Source: a virus
Strand: one strand, 5' to 3'
IMG/VR virus record: IMGVR_UViG_3300006175_000004
Location: 1 to 64,000 of that record
DNA: 64,000 bases
Position 1 is the stretch's first letter. Each line of letters starts with the position of its first letter. Under the pieces are notes generated by a model that worked only from the letters and a program-made list of their open reading frames with translations, was not told where the DNA came from and did no database searches. The translations under genes were made by a program, and so were the position numbers. Below, in pieces: positions 49,124-61,314 of this stretch.

Positions 49124-50146
49124 TTACTGATACTGCATCGAGACTCCGGTGATTGCTTCCGGACGAACGCCCCAACCCGATGTCGAACGAAGTTCGCTGA
49201 CAATATCAATCGCGCCACCGGGGATCGGTGTCGGGATTTCTTTTGGCGCAGCCATGTCGTTCAATTGCAGCGTGCAAGCTTCCAAGCCCGGCGACAGCTT
49301 GGCGAACTCGTTGGTATTGATCTTCCCGCCTGCGGGCTTCTGCACTTCAGGCATGACGATGAGGACCAAATCGGTGTTGCCGCCGAGTCCCTGATTGATC
49401 AGGGTATCGTCATAGCACCACAAGATTTCATCCTTGTTGTCGCTTGCCACGGATTTGACCACGCCTGCGGTCGAAGTCGTGCCTGCGCCGGGCCGCTGGA
49501 ATTGCACAAGCTGAACCACGTTGTATTCGAACGTGCCAAGCGTGCGCTGCGGTCCAAGGATGGTGAACTTCCTGCCGATCCCCAATTGATTGGTGCGGGA
49601 TTTGATCTGCTGGATCTGCGACAAAATGAACAACGCCATTTGCCCGTTGTCATAGGTGACGACGGTATCGTTGTTGTTCGAATCAGGCGGCAGCGGGATT
49701 GCCGTCGAACCATTGGTATTGACAATGCCTTCGCCGTTCGCGGGGTTCATCCCGTAAAGCAGCATATTCCGAAGAAGCTGGAAGTGGCCTTGGCGCATAC
49801 CCAACCGCTGGGCTTCGACGATGGAAACATTCCACCGGCTCATCGCAGCGGTATCATGGTGGTCGTATTCAGCCCGGACCCGAAGCAAGTAGGACGCGGT
49901 GCTGATCATCGACATCGCAATGCCGACCGATGGCAGTTCATTGTAAGCCGATTGCCCGCCCGCCATCTTCGTGCGGATATCCGCGCGGCGGATGTAAGCA
50001 ACCAAATCACCTTCGCCCAAGCGGGTCAGCGGTTCGCCACCCCCAAGAAGATCGAAAGCCCCGGAAGCCTGCGAGTAAGGCAGCAGGATTTCCGGCATTG
50101 TGTATGACGGGTTGAGCGTCACATAAGCCGGGGCAATGTTACCCAT
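49124..50146 (-). CDS. major capsid protein
   Basis: A 340-residue HK97-fold type capsid protein, judged from position and pattern. The N-terminus (LLPYSQASGAFDLLGGGEPL) and the central helix SIVEAQRLGMRQGHFQLLRN, with LLYGMNPANGEGIVN, fit phage capsid proteins; the C-terminal half has the strands of the A-domain (VLIVMPEVQKPAG). It follows the decoration protein and the protease-scaffold gene, the usual order. A hairpin and inverted repeat follow the gene. Confidence 0.8.
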   Translation of the reverse strand: MGNIAPAYVTLNPSYTMPEILLPYSQASGAFDLLGGGEPLTRLGEGDLVAYIRRADIRTKMAGGQSAYNELPSVGIAMSMISTASYLLRVRAEYDHHDTAAMSRWNVSIVEAQRLGMRQGHFQLLRNMLLYGMNPANGEGIVNTNGSTAIPLPPDSNNNDTVVTYDNGQMALFILSQIQQIKSRTNQLGIGRKFTILGPQRTLGTFEYNVVQLVQFQRPGAGTTSTAGVVKSVASDNKDEILWCYDDTLINQGLGGNTDLVLIVMPEVQKPAGGKINTNEFAKLSPGLEACTLQLNDMAAPKEIPTPIPGGAIDIVSELRSTSGWGVRPEAITGVSMQYQ

Positions 50147-51174: not shown

Positions 51175-53118
51175 TCAGCGGCCCTGTTGTGCCGATGGCG
51201 TCAGGAAACCGCCTTTGTCCCAATCCACCTTCTGCACCGGGGCTTTGAAGTCGCGCACGAAGCTGTGCTTGCCGACAAAGCTGATCGTGCGCTGACCGGT
51301 CGCATGGTCAGTGCGGGTAATCTGACGAAGCTCGTCTTCCGGCAGATCGACAGGATTGTCCGCAGCCTTGAACGCGTCTGCGTAAATCTGCCCTTCAGCC
51401 ACATCGAAGGCCGCGTCCGCAATTGCGGCGACATCAACCTTCGACCATGCAGGCGAATGGACCTTCAGCGCGGTAGCCAACCGGCGCTTGTAGGCTTCCA
51501 ACGTTTCCCCATCCAAGGGGCGCGGCGCTGAATCACCAAAGGCTTGGAAGACCGTGTCCGCCTTCGCCTGCACTTCTGCCCGCTTGCGGAAATCCGCATC
51601 GGACATCTGCAACGGCATCCGGCGTTTCAGATCGGCAATTTCGCGCTTCATGGCTTTGACATCGACGCTGTCCTTGCGGGCATCATCGTCATCATCGTCG
51701 TCCTTCTTCGCGTCCTTGCGACCCTTCTTTTTGTCGGCAACGGCGACCTTTTTGTCTTCTTCTTCGTCTTCGTCATCGTCGTCGTCATCGTCGTCGTCTT
51801 TTTTGTCTTCCTTCTTCCCCTTCATGTCTTCAGGGAAGTCGTCCTTCTTGGCCGCATCCTTTTTGTCGGCCTTTTTGTCTTCCTTCTTTTCTTCTTCTTC
51901 GTCGTCGTCATCGTCGTCGGCCTTCTTGGCTTCGAACGCATCCATGCGCGACGACATTGAATCGACCTTCGCTGCGTACTCGTCAAAACGCTGACGATCA
52001 TCGGCCCGGCCTTTCGCCAAGCTGTCAAGACCCGTCAGGATTTTGTCGAGTTTGTCTCCACCTTCCGCATCTGCTCGCACCTTCGCTTCTGCGGCCTTTC
52101 TTTCTTCATCCGTCACTGTACTGTCTCCTTTCACGAGAGTAGCCACACCGGCTGGATCGCCACCTTTGTCCCAAACACCCTTCTCGCAGATGGCGATATG
52201 ATCGAGCAGAGAAGGTTTACCTTCAATCAGTAATTGTTCACCTGTATCCAATTCCACTTTCGTATTGACGCTTGGATCGCGGAACACCACCGCAGGCGAC
52301 GTGGAAAGCTGTGTGTTCCGCATTTCCTTGATTGCATCTGCATCGTAGATTTTAGCGATGCCCCAAACTTCGCTCGCTTCCGGCTTCAGGTACGGCAGGA
52401 AGACTGATCCAACAACGCGGTCGTTGAATTCCTTGCTGTTCAACATCGCGCTTTTGGGATGCTCGAAGATTACCGACAAGCCCATGCACCGCTGCACGAA
52501 GTCTTCATTCATGTACAGCGATGGATCGCGCCACACATATTCGTTGTGCTTGTGGCGATAGGCCATTCCGGTGCCGGTAATGCGGATATTGAACAGCCAC
52601 ATGTTGTCATAGGGCTGCGGGCTGACCAGAAGCCCGGACATCATCGCGCGGGCGACAGCGAGTTCGTCCATGCCAAGGCGGTCGAGCGCAATCTGACAGC
52701 CGGGGTGCATCGGCTGCGGTGGCTGATCGATGGGTGCCCAAGCCCATCCGACATGTTCGCCATTGACCGTAGGCGTGAATTCTTCCTTCACCCGCTGAAT
52801 GAATGTGGTGAAGTCGACTTCTTCCCCCGGCGCTGCTTCGCCCGGTAGCAAGGCAACGCTGCCATTCAGAGGTGCAGGGGCAAGCGGGGTTGGATCACGG
52901 GGCCTGATTTGCCGCGTCCATTCGGCCCGTGGCCCTGCGGGTATCTTGCCACATTCTTCGATGGCTTCGCGCTCAGCTGCTTCCAGCTCGGTCTCGTCGC
53001 CTTCGATATGGCCACCGGGGAAGCACCAGAAGCCGGGGTAATCACCGCCCGGCCCGCGCTTCAGATACAGGGCCTTGCGATCCTGCGTGATGAAAAGAAT
53101 TCCGGCAGCGCGGATCAT
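51175..53118 (-). CDS. Nudix hydrolase / capsid maturation protease (DUF2213-like) / scaffold fusion
   Basis: A 647-residue protein with three parts. Residues 1 to about 160 are a Nudix domain with an almost complete Nudix box: GHIEGDE at about 36-42 and REAIEECG at about 50-57. Residues about 165-340 resemble DUF2213-type capsid proteases (MWLFNIRITGTGMAYRHKHN, LSVIFEHPKSAML, QLSTSPAVVFRDP). Residues about 340-480 are a coiled coil and a very long Asp/Glu/Lys tract, and about 485-647 a helical scaffold-like end (DDRQRF-type and VDVKAMKREIADLKRRM). Protease plus scaffold is common; the Nudix part at the front is unusual. TGATG overlap upstream. Confidence 0.8.
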   Translation of the reverse strand: MIRAAGILFITQDRKALYLKRGPGGDYPGFWCFPGGHIEGDETELEAAEREAIEECGKIPAGPRAEWTRQIRPRDPTPLAPAPLNGSVALLPGEAAPGEEVDFTTFIQRVKEEFTPTVNGEHVGWAWAPIDQPPQPMHPGCQIALDRLGMDELAVARAMMSGLLVSPQPYDNMWLFNIRITGTGMAYRHKHNEYVWRDPSLYMNEDFVQRCMGLSVIFEHPKSAMLNSKEFNDRVVGSVFLPYLKPEASEVWGIAKIYDADAIKEMRNTQLSTSPAVVFRDPSVNTKVELDTGEQLLIEGKPSLLDHIAICEKGVWDKGGDPAGVATLVKGDSTVTDEERKAAEAKVRADAEGGDKLDKILTGLDSLAKGRADDRQRFDEYAAKVDSMSSRMDAFEAKKADDDDDDEEEEKKEDKKADKKDAAKKDDFPEDMKGKKEDKKDDDDDDDDDEDEEEDKKVAVADKKKGRKDAKKDDDDDDDARKDSVDVKAMKREIADLKRRMPLQMSDADFRKRAEVQAKADTVFQAFGDSAPRPLDGETLEAYKRRLATALKVHSPAWSKVDVAAIADAAFDVAEGQIYADAFKAADNPVDLPEDELRQITRTDHATGQRTISFVGKHSFVRDFKAPVQKVDWDKGGFLTPSAQQGR

Positions 53119-54407
53119 CAGGATACCACTTTCACTTTGCCTTCGGGGATCATGTAGTTGGTATTTTCAGATGGGGCCGATTGGATTTGCAGGTGGCCGT
53201 CGCGGGCAGACAGAACCCGACCGGTTTCGCCGTGGCCACGAATGCCCGGCGCATTGATCTTCACCTGCTTGCCGATCATCGGGTGCTTGTCAGCATCGGT
53301 CCTCGTCTTTGACCTAGGCGGAACAACCGTCACTGATTTGACGTTGCTCTGCGCCTTCATTTCCTTCTCCATGTGACGAGCTTCACTTTCGTGAGTGTAA
53401 ACATAGGTGTCAAAGTCACCGGTCTTCCAATAGACTTTGACTTCCCAATAGCTGGAAGCATCACCACGAACGGCCTTCTTCTTGTCAGGGCCTTCCATCA
53501 TCTTCGCGATGTCGCGGTCGATGTCGTCGATCTTCGCAGCCAATTCCCCGGCCTTGGCAGGATTGCCTTCCGATTTTATCAAGCGGTCAAGCTGGCTCTG
53601 AAGCTCGGTACGCAAGGCCCGCAGGCGAACCAGTTCACCTGCTGTGCTGTCGGCCTTTATTTCGCTGACATATATTCCGGTGCAATCCGGGTGCTTTCGG
53701 TGGGCAATCTTCGCCGCTTCATCTTTGGTAGCTGCCTTGATGTCCAAATCGGCCACGTGCTTTGACGATTGCGGGGTCTTGAATACTTGTACGTGCCATT
53801 CCCGCTCGGCTGCATCAGCCTTCGTGCCCTGATTGGGTTCACGATATGATGCAGCAATGGAATCGATCTTCACCATTGCTTCATCCATCAGGCACGCGTC
53901 CATCTTGGCGCAGATCGCGTCAAGCATCGATGAAGCGGGCGATACCGCGCTGTCGCTGCGCGGTTCCCACTCAAGGGCACCTTCGTCGTTTTCGACATAG
54001 GCCCCTTTGGTCTGTTTGGCCTTGGCGACCGCTTCCTTGAAGCTGTCGATCTGCCCGGAGATTTTACGGCCGTCTTTCACGACGAAGAAGGTCTCCGGCA
54101 CATTCTGCTCAATGCGTGAGTCGGCCCGATTTGCCCCTTCCAATTCCTTGGTCAGATCACGGACGTTCTGCTCGAGCTTTTCCTTGCTCGGGATATTGAT
54201 GGTGTTGAACCGACCGCCCGCCAGCAACTTCTTGGCTTCGGCAAGTTCTTGTTGGATCGCTTCACGTGGCCTGCCTGCATCCGCCCGATCCACGCCCGAT
54301 ATCTTCCCGGCATTCTTGGAAGCGTAGAAGACTTGCTTCCCCTTGTCGCCACCGTATTCCTTTTCCATCGCGGCAAGGATTTCCTCACCTTTTGCTGTCA
54401 ACGGCAT
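53118..54407 (-). CDS. prohead-associated protein
   Basis: A 429-residue protein. The first 40 residues (MPLTAKGEEILAAMEKEYGG, then GKQVFYASKNAGKI) are a conserved motif found at the start of many phage proteins next to capsid proteases. Two internal ferredoxin-like segments follow (REWHVQVFKTPQSSKHVADL; YWEVKVYWKTGDFDTYVYTH) with long helices between, and a C-terminal KOW/SH3-like part (IGKQVKINAPGIRGHGETGR). Probably a capsid assembly or core protein. Confidence 0.65.
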   Translation of the reverse strand: MPLTAKGEEILAAMEKEYGGDKGKQVFYASKNAGKISGVDRADAGRPREAIQQELAEAKKLLAGGRFNTINIPSKEKLEQNVRDLTKELEGANRADSRIEQNVPETFFVVKDGRKISGQIDSFKEAVAKAKQTKGAYVENDEGALEWEPRSDSAVSPASSMLDAICAKMDACLMDEAMVKIDSIAASYREPNQGTKADAAEREWHVQVFKTPQSSKHVADLDIKAATKDEAAKIAHRKHPDCTGIYVSEIKADSTAGELVRLRALRTELQSQLDRLIKSEGNPAKAGELAAKIDDIDRDIAKMMEGPDKKKAVRGDASSYWEVKVYWKTGDFDTYVYTHESEARHMEKEMKAQSNVKSVTVVPPRSKTRTDADKHPMIGKQVKINAPGIRGHGETGRVLSARDGHLQIQSAPSENTNYMIPEGKVKVVS

Positions 54408-55453: not shown

Positions 55454-55742
55454 TGGGTGCTCCTTTGCTTTGATCGCCGGTTTCCAATTCGGTGGGCGAT
55501 ATCACCGGTTCCATTCCATTGCGGACCCATTCCAAGGCTGCATCCCGCGCGGCGATTGCGTGGGTCACCTCTTCCTTGAAATGCTGCACGCTATTGATCG
55601 CCGGGTGCCTGACGAACAGCAGCATCACAAGAGTGCCTACCCGCTCACCAAAGCCTTTGTGGATTGCACCTTCGTAGTAAGCGATCCGCCTGATTTTCAA
55701 CTCGCGCTGTGCCGCAGCGGCAAGGTCTTCAGAAGCCGTCAC
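55443..55742 (-). CDS. hypothetical protein
   Basis: A 99-residue helical protein (MTASEDLAAAAQRELKIRRI...). The GTG start overlaps the stop of the MuF gene (GTGA), so it is translated with it. May be an early-late assembly helper; no motif recognised. Confidence 0.6.
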   Translation of the reverse strand: MTASEDLAAAAQRELKIRRIAYYEGAIHKGFGERVGTLVMLLFVRHPAINSVQHFKEEVTHAIAARDAALEWVRNGMEPVISPTELETGDQSKGAPNGT

Positions 55743-56593
55743 AATCCAGCCACCATTTCGCGCACCTTGGCCTGCGCTTCCTTCAGGCTCTTCTCGCCTT
55801 TCGCGGTCAGCATCGACTTCGGCAGATCGCGCACATGGTAGACATATTGGCCGTAGCAGCGACAGAATGGTTCTTCAGCGGGCTGCGTGATCTTGTCGAG
55901 AAACCCCGCGTTGCCTTGCCGCATCAATCCCTGCTCGAGAGCCCAGTTGCCCCGAATGGTATAGACCAGCATGTCGCGCTCCTTGTGGTCTTCGCGATAA
56001 TTGTAGCCCGGCTGCCGCCAATGGCTGTGCCAGATCATCGCAAGCGCGTTGTTGTCTTTCGCCACGATGTCATTGATTGCCGATGTCAGCTTGTGGCCCT
56101 GATCAATCAGCACGCGGCGTTCTTCAAATTTGGTCCGCGCCAGCGACTTGCGTATATCCTGCTTGGCTGCGGGCTTCTGACCGGCCACTTTCGTTCCGCC
56201 CTTGGGGATCGATGTGGCCCAACCACTGAAGCGTTGCAGCGTCTTCTCGATGGATTGCTGACGGTTCAATCTGATGAGATTGGCCGATGCCAGTATCCGG
56301 CGATCCAATTCCGCCCGAAGATGAGGCCGCAACCGTTCAATGGTAAATCTTCCGACCCCGGCATGATACCGAGCGATGCCGCCCTTCTCGACCATGCGGG
56401 TATAAATCGCGATCAACCCGCCCCGCAGCATGGCCTCGAGCACATGGGGCTGGGTGAATTCCTTTTCGGCTGCTTCCTTGATCTTCTTTTCCCACATCAC
56501 CAATCGTTCAACGGTGTCGAAGCCGTGGGTGAGCAAGTCATCCACGGCTTCAGTGACAACGTCGTAGAAGGAATTACCCTTCTGTGATGGCAT
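55739..56593 (-). CDS. MuF-like minor head protein
   Basis: A 284-residue protein. The C-terminal block has WHSHWRQPGYNYREDHKERD, then NWALEQGLMRQG and PAEEPFCRCYGQYVY, the pattern of SPP1 gp7/Mu gpF minor capsid proteins. The N-terminal part is helical. Such proteins lie at the portal vertex and help head assembly or go out with DNA. TAATG overlap with the upstream gene. Confidence 0.72.
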   Translation of the reverse strand: MPSQKGNSFYDVVTEAVDDLLTHGFDTVERLVMWEKKIKEAAEKEFTQPHVLEAMLRGGLIAIYTRMVEKGGIARYHAGVGRFTIERLRPHLRAELDRRILASANLIRLNRQQSIEKTLQRFSGWATSIPKGGTKVAGQKPAAKQDIRKSLARTKFEERRVLIDQGHKLTSAINDIVAKDNNALAMIWHSHWRQPGYNYREDHKERDMLVYTIRGNWALEQGLMRQGNAGFLDKITQPAEEPFCRCYGQYVYHVRDLPKSMLTAKGEKSLKEAQAKVREMVAGL

Positions 56594-57926: not shown

Positions 57927-59510
57927 CTAGGCAGCGCGATCCATTTTCTTGCTTTGACGCAGCAACTTGGTCAACACATTGACCATTGCAGAGTCAGCCC
58001 TTGGCAGCTTCGGCTGATGCTCTTTCGGTGCCGCCTGCTTGCCCGGCTGCTTGTCGCCGTCTTCTTCGTCATCGCCTTCGCCGTCATCTTCGTCGTCGCT
58101 CTGATCATTCCCGCCACCGCCACCGTTCTGCATCATTGCGGCCTGCGGGTCGAAGTTCTCCAAGGCGTCGAAGTCGAGCATCAATTCGTTCGGGAACAGC
58201 AGCTTCAATTCGTTGAAGTTGTCCGCCAGCCATTGAATGATGATGTTGCGATTGTCGGGATCGACCGCAGGAAGCAGGACTTCGACCGCTTCGATCATCG
58301 CATCCAATCGGGTCTTGTCGACCTTCTGCTGTTCCGATGGCGGTTCGGTCAGCAGCGAAGGCCATTCAAACGCGAACGTGTTCACCCAATCGTAGAAGGC
58401 TTCGGTATAGGATTTGGTTTCGTATTCAGGGAAGTCAGCCTTCAGCGTTTCGTAGAATTCCGGGGTCCACGCCTTGTACATGCAGACCTTGTCACAGAAC
58501 TGATACAGGGGCCGCAGCCATGTGCGAACCCCGTCAATGTATTTGGCGATGTTCTTGGCGTCTTCGGTGCCTTCCGCCATCCCGCCGACCATTGTCTCAT
58601 TTTCCAGAAGCTTCGCGGGCATGTCAGCAGCGGTCGCGATGTTCTTCAGGATATTGGTGCGCACCACCTGATAGGGGCCGTCGAGATTGCGGAAGTTCAG
58701 GCTTTCGATTGCATCGTCCGGGCCGATAGAAATGACCCCGCCCGTCGATGCTTCCCTGATCATTCCGCGCTTCTGGCCCCACACCAGTTGCATCATGTTG
58801 TTGATGATCGACCCCGGTGCTTTGATCTTGGCAATCAGAACGCCGACCTTCACCGTGACCAAGTCATCGGTCAGAAGCGTTTGCAGAAACGACTTCAGCG
58901 GGAACAGCGCTCGCTGGTAGACGCTTCTGCCGACGAAGCCGAAGGCCGATTGTGTGAACGCGATATAGATCGGCTCTTCGTTCAGCACCACAACGCTTCG
59001 GCTGCGATGGAATGCGCTGCCCTGAACGCTGACCTGATCGGGTTTCATAAAGTCGATTGACAGCGGGTTCTGGTTCAGCACCAGCGATCCGGCTGTATTC
59101 AATGGATCGTAGACGTTGAAGCTGGTCTTCAGCTTCGACAGCTCTTTGTAATCGAGCGGCCTGCCGGGTGGCACGCCTTCCGCCATCAGGGTCAGCGTGG
59201 CGATCCCGTAGACGCGCGACAGGGATGCGACATTCTTGATTGCGCCATCGCAGCCAAGCTTGGTCCACATTTCCTCAAAGGCATTCTTCACGCGGTCTTG
59301 CGGCGATTTGCTGACCACAATTTCGCGCTTCTGCGATTGGGCCATTTTGATCGGGGCTTCCGCCATCTTGGCCCCAAGCGGGTGGTACAGGTAGATCGTC
59401 TTGCAAAGCTGATACGACGGATCGTCGCCCGGCTGTATATCTTCGGCCTGCAACAGATCGGACAACTGGTTGCCCAGCGACGATCCATTGATGCTGATGC
59501 TTGCTGGCAT
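57927..59510 (-). CDS. portal protein (DUF1073-like)
   Basis: A 527-residue portal, which forms the ring through which DNA enters and leaves the head. The pattern SYQLCKTIYLYHPLGAKMAE, LSRVYGIATLTLMAEGVPPG and YQRALFPLKSFLQTLLTDDL, with ADMPAKLLENETMVGGMAEG, matches DUF1073-type phage portals. The C-terminal 60 residues are an acidic Asp/Glu/Gly tract followed by a basic end. Its place after the large terminase is canonical. Confidence 0.85.
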   Translation of the reverse strand: MPASISINGSSLGNQLSDLLQAEDIQPGDDPSYQLCKTIYLYHPLGAKMAEAPIKMAQSQKREIVVSKSPQDRVKNAFEEMWTKLGCDGAIKNVASLSRVYGIATLTLMAEGVPPGRPLDYKELSKLKTSFNVYDPLNTAGSLVLNQNPLSIDFMKPDQVSVQGSAFHRSRSVVVLNEEPIYIAFTQSAFGFVGRSVYQRALFPLKSFLQTLLTDDLVTVKVGVLIAKIKAPGSIINNMMQLVWGQKRGMIREASTGGVISIGPDDAIESLNFRNLDGPYQVVRTNILKNIATAADMPAKLLENETMVGGMAEGTEDAKNIAKYIDGVRTWLRPLYQFCDKVCMYKAWTPEFYETLKADFPEYETKSYTEAFYDWVNTFAFEWPSLLTEPPSEQQKVDKTRLDAMIEAVEVLLPAVDPDNRNIIIQWLADNFNELKLLFPNELMLDFDALENFDPQAAMMQNGGGGGNDQSDDEDDGEGDDEEDGDKQPGKQAAPKEHQPKLPRADSAMVNVLTKLLRQSKKMDRAA

Positions 59511-59991: not shown

Positions 59992-61314
59992 TCAGTATCC
60001 CGACGAGTCACCCAACGCCAACGATATGCCATAGCAGAAGCAATCCAACAGATCGTCGGCCCGCTTGTTCGCATCCGGATCGGCAACCCTGAAGCCCAAT
60101 ATCTGCGACATCATTTGATTGCGGGTGCTGCCCTTGAACGTGGTCACCTTGTCATAGGCTTGCTCGGTCACCTTGACCAAACCCTGATAGACATAACCGC
60201 TGACATTGATCGCCCGCTCGTCCTTGCCCTTGCTCACCAGCTCGGTGTCAATGGCTTGGGCTTTCCATCCCCGCTTCACCGCTTGCTGAAGCAGGATCGT
60301 GCCGCTGTTTGTATCTTCGATGAATGCACCCAACGATCCAGCGCGGGCCTCGTATTCCTTTGCGAAGGATTCCAGCAGCCGGAACACATTGGGCAGCCAT
60401 GCTTCAAGGCTTGCGCCTTCGATCTGTACAAGGTCCCAATCCAGAATGTAGAGTGTGTTCCCCTTCGATTTGGTGAAACCGAAATAGATCACGCCGGTGC
60501 CGTCATTCTCCTTTCCGGTCTTGATGGCCGTATCAATGACCGCGAAGACGCTGTCGATCCGCTTGGGACAGACCGCAGGCTTCCCATTGATGAGCAGCTT
60601 GTCCTTGCCGAAGAAGGCGATACCCGACCAGTCGACGAATTCGGCCAAGTATTCCTGCTGATAAACCAACGGGTGGTTTTCAGCTTCCAGCTCCTTGAAA
60701 ATGACTTCCCTGCGGGCCAGCCACTCGGCTTCGGTCTCATGGGGATCGCGGATCGGGATGAGGGGATTGTCGAACGTGGGCGCGTGGAATTCTACAAAGC
60801 CCAGCTTCTTCTCATTGCAAATCTTGTAAAGGAAATTGTCGGGATCGTTTCCGTTGGTGTTCGACAGAACAATCGCGCTGCCCTGATAATCCAACAGCGT
60901 GGGCCTGATCGATTTCTCCCAAATCCCCAACATATTGTTCTTGGTGAATGCACCTTCGTCGATGATCACCTTGTGATAGTGCCGGGATCGCCCGGCTGAC
61001 TCGTTGTCCAATGTCCAGAAATCAATCCGGCCACCGCCTATGGTACGAATGACCCCTTCGACCTTGCTGCTACTGGTCCGGATCGGCAGAAGCATGGCAG
61101 CCAGATCGTTGAAGGCTTCCGATGATTTCTTGTAATCAGGGGCGAACCATCCGATGCATTCCTGATTGATTGCGCCATCAGCGGCAATCACTTCACCGAA
61201 TGTGGTCTTCCCCCATCGCCTTCCGCACCTGATGGCTTTGAAGCGGGCCGGGTAATCGAATGCTGATACCTGCCCGTCATGCAGGGTCGGCAGTGACACA
61301 TGGACATCAGGCAT
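59992..61314 (-). CDS. terminase large subunit
   Basis: A 440-residue packaging motor. ATPase domain: Walker A GRRWGKTT at 31-38, Walker B VIIDE at 116-120, followed by a coupling motif (LSNTNGND). The nuclease domain starts with SVFAVIDTAIKTG and has further acidic sites (FIEDTNSG; ADDLLDCFCYG). It cuts and pumps concatemeric DNA into the prohead. Starts inside the end of the zinc-ribbon gene by 8 bases. Confidence 0.92.
   Translation of the reverse strand: MPDVHVSLPTLHDGQVSAFDYPARFKAIRCGRRWGKTTFGEVIAADGAINQECIGWFAPDYKKSSEAFNDLAAMLLPIRTSSSKVEGVIRTIGGGRIDFWTLDNESAGRSRHYHKVIIDEGAFTKNNMLGIWEKSIRPTLLDYQGSAIVLSNTNGNDPDNFLYKICNEKKLGFVEFHAPTFDNPLIPIRDPHETEAEWLARREVIFKELEAENHPLVYQQEYLAEFVDWSGIAFFGKDKLLINGKPAVCPKRIDSVFAVIDTAIKTGKENDGTGVIYFGFTKSKGNTLYILDWDLVQIEGASLEAWLPNVFRLLESFAKEYEARAGSLGAFIEDTNSGTILLQQAVKRGWKAQAIDTELVSKGKDERAINVSGYVYQGLVKVTEQAYDKVTTFKGSTRNQMMSQILGFRVADPDANKRADDLLDCFCYGISLALGDSSGY

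Follow-up and report, generated by a model that had tools for sequence, protein, structure and literature searches.

A phage Nudix-capsid protease-scaffold gene with a predicted nested start for its scaffold

Our study reports on a virus gene in which a Nudix hydrolase domain, a capsid maturation protease and a scaffold-like region share a single open reading frame (ORF); the window, the whole stretch of DNA analysed, comprises 64,000 nucleotides of a 74,108-base virus record. The sequence signals make us confident that this gene yields two products, the long form and a free scaffold. The account that we favour as a whole, in which a scarce long form loads an active Nudix enzyme into the prohead for delivery as cargo, is more tentative, and we place its chance at a little under even.

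Results

Gene and genome setting

The ORF runs from 53118 to 51175 as a continuous frame with zero internal stops in the 64-kb window, and sits in a head operon of terminase, portal, MuF-like, Nudix-protease-scaffold, 302-aa and capsid protein genes:

59992-61314: terminase, head operon
57927..59510, minus strand: portal protein (Pfam Phage_portal_3, 5.5e-16), sharing the operon with the Nudix ORF
55739..56593, minus strand: MuF-like head morphogenesis protein (phrog_324, 3.6e-26)
53118..54407, minus strand: 429-aa gene upstream of the Nudix ORF, with a 1-nt overlap with its start (TGATG)
51175..53118, minus strand: Nudix-protease-scaffold ORF, 647 aa, ATG start (PHROG 6216, E 2.8e-136)
Between the Nudix ORF and the capsid protein in the operon order: 302-aa gene (phrog_6268)
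49124..50146, minus strand: major capsid protein, downstream (phrog_6671, E 4.8e-139; weak match to phrog_264, major head)

The PHROG 6216 profile matches the ORF in two stretches, the best of which covers residues 4-455. The ATG is without a Shine-Dalgarno (SD) sequence and overlaps the upstream stop, so that initiation probably occurs by coupling to the upstream gene.

About 40 N-terminal residues of the 429-aa upstream gene (MPLTAKGEEILAAMEKEYGG...GKISGVD) are common to genes in 68 loci, where the gene mostly lies directly upstream of the Nudix-protease gene; the remainder of the protein is variable. The slot between MuF and the Nudix-protease gene is occupied in relatives by ADP-ribosyltransferases (loci L010, L058 and L125) and by a zeta-toxin-like kinase (L009). 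PMC5512222 and PMC9503650 discuss enzymes of these kinds, located on MuF or close to it, as effectors delivered from the head.

Several further features of the relatives' loci were observed. A motif, [WF]xExxHPR[DA]xDG[KR]F followed by Gly/Ser, occurs in 22 of 238 loci in differing head-operon proteins, its carriers being ADP-ribosyltransferases, the zeta-toxin-like kinase, Nudix-topoisomerases and protease N-termini (sites L010:6448, L058:4330 and 5430, L009:6166, L125:3915, L221:1248, L142:7335 and L209:3662). Its [WF]xE part resembles xxE maturation cleavage sites, and from its sequence the motif is possibly a head-cargo tag; the window contains no HPRD..GKF motif. Intein splicing domains are found upstream of the Nudix-protease gene in L096, L103, L106 and L111, in head or packaging genes that include the L111 terminase. 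A 1375-aa protein with zero Pfam matches precedes a portal-sized gene (L012:1173-5297), and the flank of the phage Rac-SA53 locus carries an annotated enterotoxin subunit gene (L006:1-356).

Nudix domain

An earlier note, made from the sequence, had assigned Nudix, capsid protease and scaffold parts to this protein, and all three assignments are borne out by HMM searches, structure prediction and relatives. The near-complete Nudix box that it saw at the N-terminus proves to hold all the catalytic letters:

52669..53118, minus strand: Nudix domain, aa 1-150, including the last helix HPGCQIALDRL (Pfam E 3.2e-15; AF2 model)
52945..53013, minus strand: Nudix box, aa 36-58 (sequence; conservation in 65 non-redundant relatives)

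The Pfam NUDIX match spans residues 3-138 and, at E 3.2e-15, is far past chance. The box is spelled G36-x5-E42-x7-R50-E51-A52-x-E54-E55-x-G57-K58, in which every metal-binding and catalytic letter is kept and the 'hydrophobic' (U) positions of GX5EX7REUXEEXGU are relaxed to A52 and K58. Structure prediction of residues 1-160 gives a Nudix fold, modelled confidently by AlphaFold2 from an alignment of 25 relatives; the best PDB match is MutT 4dyw (VIA Z 17.3, rmsd 1.8 over 124 residues). A Pro/Ala-rich loop near aa 75-98, predicted with low confidence, is extra relative to the PHROG 6216 proteins.

This fold is uninformative about the substrate, because MutT, NudI, NudB, Ap4A hydrolases and Dcp2 all match the model within a few Z units. 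A PDB profile search places MutT and CTP pyrophosphohydrolase at the top, and the best NCBIfam models are of NudG/MutT type, at 20-28 bits against cut-offs of 98-245. Assignment of the domain as NudE, MutT or NudG failed by curated models and by the tree: the curated NudE model gave no match to the window Nudix, and the NudE of PEi26 sits on a long branch of unsettled placement. The sole match in a defence library was PDC-S07, a generic Nudix-box match.

Among 65 Nudix-protease sequences less than 70% identical, E42, R50, E51, E54 and E55 show 97-98% conservation, which places them beside structural glycines and prolines among the most conserved positions; two exceptions, seen by eye, are R to S in L063 and EE to EK in L153. 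Over 60 related pairs, dN/dS has a median of 0.097 in the Nudix domain and 0.070 in the protease domain. Conservation of the catalytic residues and low dN/dS are in keeping with an enzyme rather than a relic, and we conclude from these patterns that the domain is probably catalytically active.

The same conservation bears on the suggestion in the earlier note that the Nudix might be a simple shell-binding module, which becomes less likely given nearly invariant catalytic residues. A broader version of this idea, in which the domain is a structural or regulatory module that anchors the protease on the shell or portal, or keeps it inactive pending a change in a ligand or packaging signal, with catalysis secondary, is weakened by the same residues and by phages in which the Nudix is absent or located elsewhere although the protease is the same. 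In its favour, the distance from the Nudix to the RITGTG motif is about 40 residues for half or more of the relatives (25th-75th percentile, 40-41), and the last Nudix helix (HPG..AL.RL) stays on the protease where the Nudix has left or been split off. We regard such a module as improbable as the main explanation; the near-fixed spacing nevertheless hints that the two domains are related structurally rather than joined by a loose linker for cargo, and the Nudix may have a structural role as well as a catalytic one.

Protease domain

52129..52668, minus strand: capsid maturation protease domain, aa 151-330 (AF2 pLDDT 95; VIA Z 10.3 to T4 gp21 5jbl)

Modelled alone with 54 relatives, residues 149-330 give a pLDDT of 95, and the model aligns with T4 gp21 (5jbl; VIA Z 10.3, rmsd 2.7, 130 residues) and with the herpesvirus proteases 4v08 and 1vzv (Z about 7.5). 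On this model, the region is a protease with the fold of T4 gp21 and herpesvirus assemblin. Conservation points to a candidate catalytic set of H220, S272/S274 and D306/H307: H220, S272, S274 and D306 are invariant and H307 is kept in 98% of 65 non-redundant sequences. Plain Foldseek with the protease model returned no match below E 0.001, and a PDB sequence-profile search with the protease alignment returned zero relatives. An MCE domain, suggested by weak plain-Foldseek matches only, was rejected when realignment gave gp21.

The region had been likened to a DUF2213-type protease. The capsid protease fold stands, whereas a link from the window protein to the Pfam family comes only by way of relatives: Pfam DUF2213 gave no match to it up to E 0.1, and the DUF2213 cut-off of 22 is passed by L058 and L006, which are about 50% identical to it in the protease domain.

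Junction of the Nudix and protease domains

The possibility that the Nudix part is made from its own start was checked, and no SD-led start was found in the window where the Nudix and protease parts meet, nor any separate SD-led start for the Nudix or for the protease inside the ORF; the Nudix and protease are therefore made as one chain. An SD-led start at this junction is likewise absent in 8 of the 9 other scaffold-fused Nudix carriers examined. Weak 4-nt SD matches occur there in 21 of 61 loci, including L012, L025 and L041 of the split-scaffold group.

These data also bear on an artefact, in which a separate Nudix gene was joined to the protease by sequencing error or annotation choice. 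In a few relatives (L116, L121 and L172) the frame does stop and restart at the junction, but it is continuous in 67 of 80 loci ranked by the protease, from many samples, and in isolate phages, and we judge this explanation extremely improbable.

Scaffold region and internal start

51178..52116, minus strand: scaffold part, aa 335-647, with a free protein of about 313 aa also predicted (relatives' separate scaffold genes)
52125..52130, minus strand: strong SD sequence AAGGAG, 8 nt before GTG codon 335
52114..52116, minus strand: internal in-frame GTG, codon 335, predicted start of the free scaffold
51682..51918, minus strand: Asp/Glu/Lys tract, aa 401-479 (sequence)

The C-terminal part of the 647-aa ORF is acidic, helical and scaffold-like. 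The Asp/Glu/Lys tract and scaffold-like end described in the earlier note are present in the sequence, and relatives back the scaffold identity: where they carry a separate scaffold gene, its start falls at the position matching GTG codon 335. The note had described a protease-scaffold fusion; the long ORF is real, but the scaffold very probably also initiates separately at this GTG, as its sequence context indicates, and 'fusion' then very probably describes the long form only.

The start signal recurs across the family. In a first set, all 11 of 11 fused relatives have an SD-led start 18-26 residues past GVWDK. Extended to 59 non-redundant fused relatives, 58 have an SD-led start within 10-45 residues, where other windows of these genes would lead one to expect 9.3. 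In a narrower 15-26 window, 53 of the 59 have a start, against 25.7 expected under synonymous codon shuffles (codons exchanged among synonyms, with the protein kept), a count that 0 of 100,000 such simulations reached; SD matches of 5 nt or more number 22 against 11.2 expected. Part of the signal lies in the protein sequence itself, where the junction carries a Met or Val, as would be the case for a start. The conserved nested start makes a clear prediction on how the amounts of scaffold and protease are set.

Two other interpretations of the split-gene relatives were rejected. They are not frameshifts, having clear SD-led scaffold starts in another frame; and about 45 contigs (L012-L061) taken as a two-gene exception gave way to a protease-ranked scan with 59 fused and 18 split loci.

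Distribution and mobility of the Nudix domain

Scans of IMG/VR recovered at least 580 and at least 573 stretches encoding relatives, and the Nudix-protease pair is thus common in environmental tailed phages, with several hundred contigs at least. Whole-protein confirmation in these first scans favoured Nudix carriers, and 80 loci were ranked by protease similarity alone: the Nudix is in frame in 67, another nearby ORF in 6, and not detected in 7. Among 14 phage-collection records with this protease, the Nudix is matched in 12; in Rac-SA53 and pPE4 the match begins only at the protease, and the Rac-SA53 genome has no Nudix at all. The existence of phages without it indicates that the Nudix is dispensable for assembly.

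The domain has moved among head genes. In L058 and L221 it is the N-terminal domain of a topoisomerase IB-like protein encoded by the same operon (identified by Pfam in L058, and in L221 by sequence likeness to L058):

L058:3943-5241 and L221:789-2159, phage head operons: Nudix-topoisomerase IB (eukaryotic-type) genes

Only supported groupings of the Nudix tree, which has few columns and many open forks, were used. L058 and L221 fall in different parts of the protease-fused group and zero bootstrap trees join them; by this phylogeny, the topoisomerase fusion has two independent origins. L116, L121 and L172 encode the Nudix in an ORF of its own, directly upstream of the protease. The HPG..AL.RL helix still opens the protease in all five of these loci, and also in L203, in which no Nudix was detected; this leftover suggests that fusion is the ancestral state and that the Nudix departed later. 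A related Nudix forms the C-terminus of the portal of Burkholderia phage Bcep781, and in phage Bm1 the Nudix is a free gene between MuF and the protease; both group with the PdC23/Chronis branch (95/84).

Ahead of the Nudix, two unrelated short N-terminal mini-domains alternate, SEKQ...GIPxxVGxEFV (L002, L007, L090 and L120) and MPLEKGSS...AIAY..AG.SKAD (L104, L111, L144 and L199). The former also precedes some Nudix-less proteases (L148, L157 and L202).

This mobility weighs on an alternative in which the Nudix is not delivered by the virion and acts late in the producing cell, within the protease chain or cut from it, in tasks such as nucleotide cleaning or removal of alarmone or NAD-derived signals. 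A late head operon, a conserved active site and the occurrence of the Nudix as a free gene adjoining the protease all suit such an enzyme; its recurrent fusion to portal, protease and head-operon topoisomerase IB, which a cytoplasmic enzyme would not need, argues against it, and we consider this alternative unlikely, if far from negligible.

Discussion

Our data suggest a model in which the scaffold started at GTG codon 335 would be the abundant product, while the full Nudix-protease-scaffold chain, started at codon 1 through coupling to the upstream gene, would be scarce. By virtue of the common scaffold sequence, the scarce chain could co-assemble into the prohead, carrying protease and Nudix inside. 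During maturation the protease would digest the scaffold and release itself, while the compact Nudix domain would be retained as head cargo and enter the next host with the DNA. There it may hydrolyse a nucleotide-type molecule (NTP or NDP-X), for which an alarmone or defence signal is a candidate. We infer each of these steps, from the synthesis of both products and their amounts through prohead entry, cleavage, retention and injection to the substrate. The earlier note had likewise suggested that the Nudix enters the prohead or is released by cleavage; the nested scaffold start, how common the architecture is and its published precedents go beyond that note.

The cargo reading draws support from the effector-type neighbours in relatives (ADP-ribosyltransferases and the zeta-toxin-like kinase) and from the relocation of the Nudix among head-operon proteins. 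Against the model stand the split-scaffold relatives, whose Nudix-protease chain is without the proposed tail, and the phages that carry no Nudix. A bolder proposal, somewhat unlikely in our estimation, is that the long protease-scaffold form is a general loading vehicle, by which a few enzyme copies per prohead are cut free and injected and, as infection begins, degrade the nucleotides that signal host stress or defence. If the Nudix is packaged, the gene would represent a simple route for loading enzymes into phage heads, and would offer a testable means of countering nucleotide signals by delivery from the head.

Comparison with known systems

In phage lambda, the gpC/Nu3 gene encodes a protease together with a scaffold that is made from a nested in-frame start. 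The window gene resembles it in its predicted nested scaffold start with a ribosome site; the lambda C protease, however, belongs to another family and is without a Nudix. The T4 head carries enzyme cargo, Alt and IP, which is matured in the prohead and targeted by its own short sequences; gp21 has the fold of the window protease, but the T4 cargo is not fused to it. The Bcep781 portal (gp17) is a head protein with a homologous Nudix, placed at the C-terminus of a portal and not on a protease.

The Nudix-protease-scaffold architecture is not new, since PHROG 6216 already holds it in full: Klebsiella phage Chronis gp4, Pantoea phage PdC23 gp4 and the Shewanella phage QDWS protein likewise join the three parts in one ORF, lie between MuF and capsid genes as in the window, and are about 38-46% identical to the window protein over matched pieces. 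They are annotated only as NUDIX hydrolase or hypothetical. The open-licence literature yielded no study of the virion proteome of either Bcep781 or PdC23; for the Nudix-protease pair, it yielded neither virion proteomics nor evidence on cleavage, and nothing on substrate, packaging or phenotype.

A 2022 survey described phage Nudix domains fused to MuF, portal or a capsid-processing serine peptidase, and already proposed their packaging and injection (PMC9503650). It files these domains as T4 NudE-like, whereas the window sequence is nearest to MutT/NudG models, and its accessible sections make no mention of the scaffold part, to which the nested start is an addition here. A DUF2213 + PF00293 architecture has been listed from Pfam (PMC8770471), with the same two domains as here but without the context of phage assembly. 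In the open-licence literature we found no report of the family-wide nested start, of the two moves to topoisomerase IB with their leftover helix or of the protease-ranked frequency of the Nudix.
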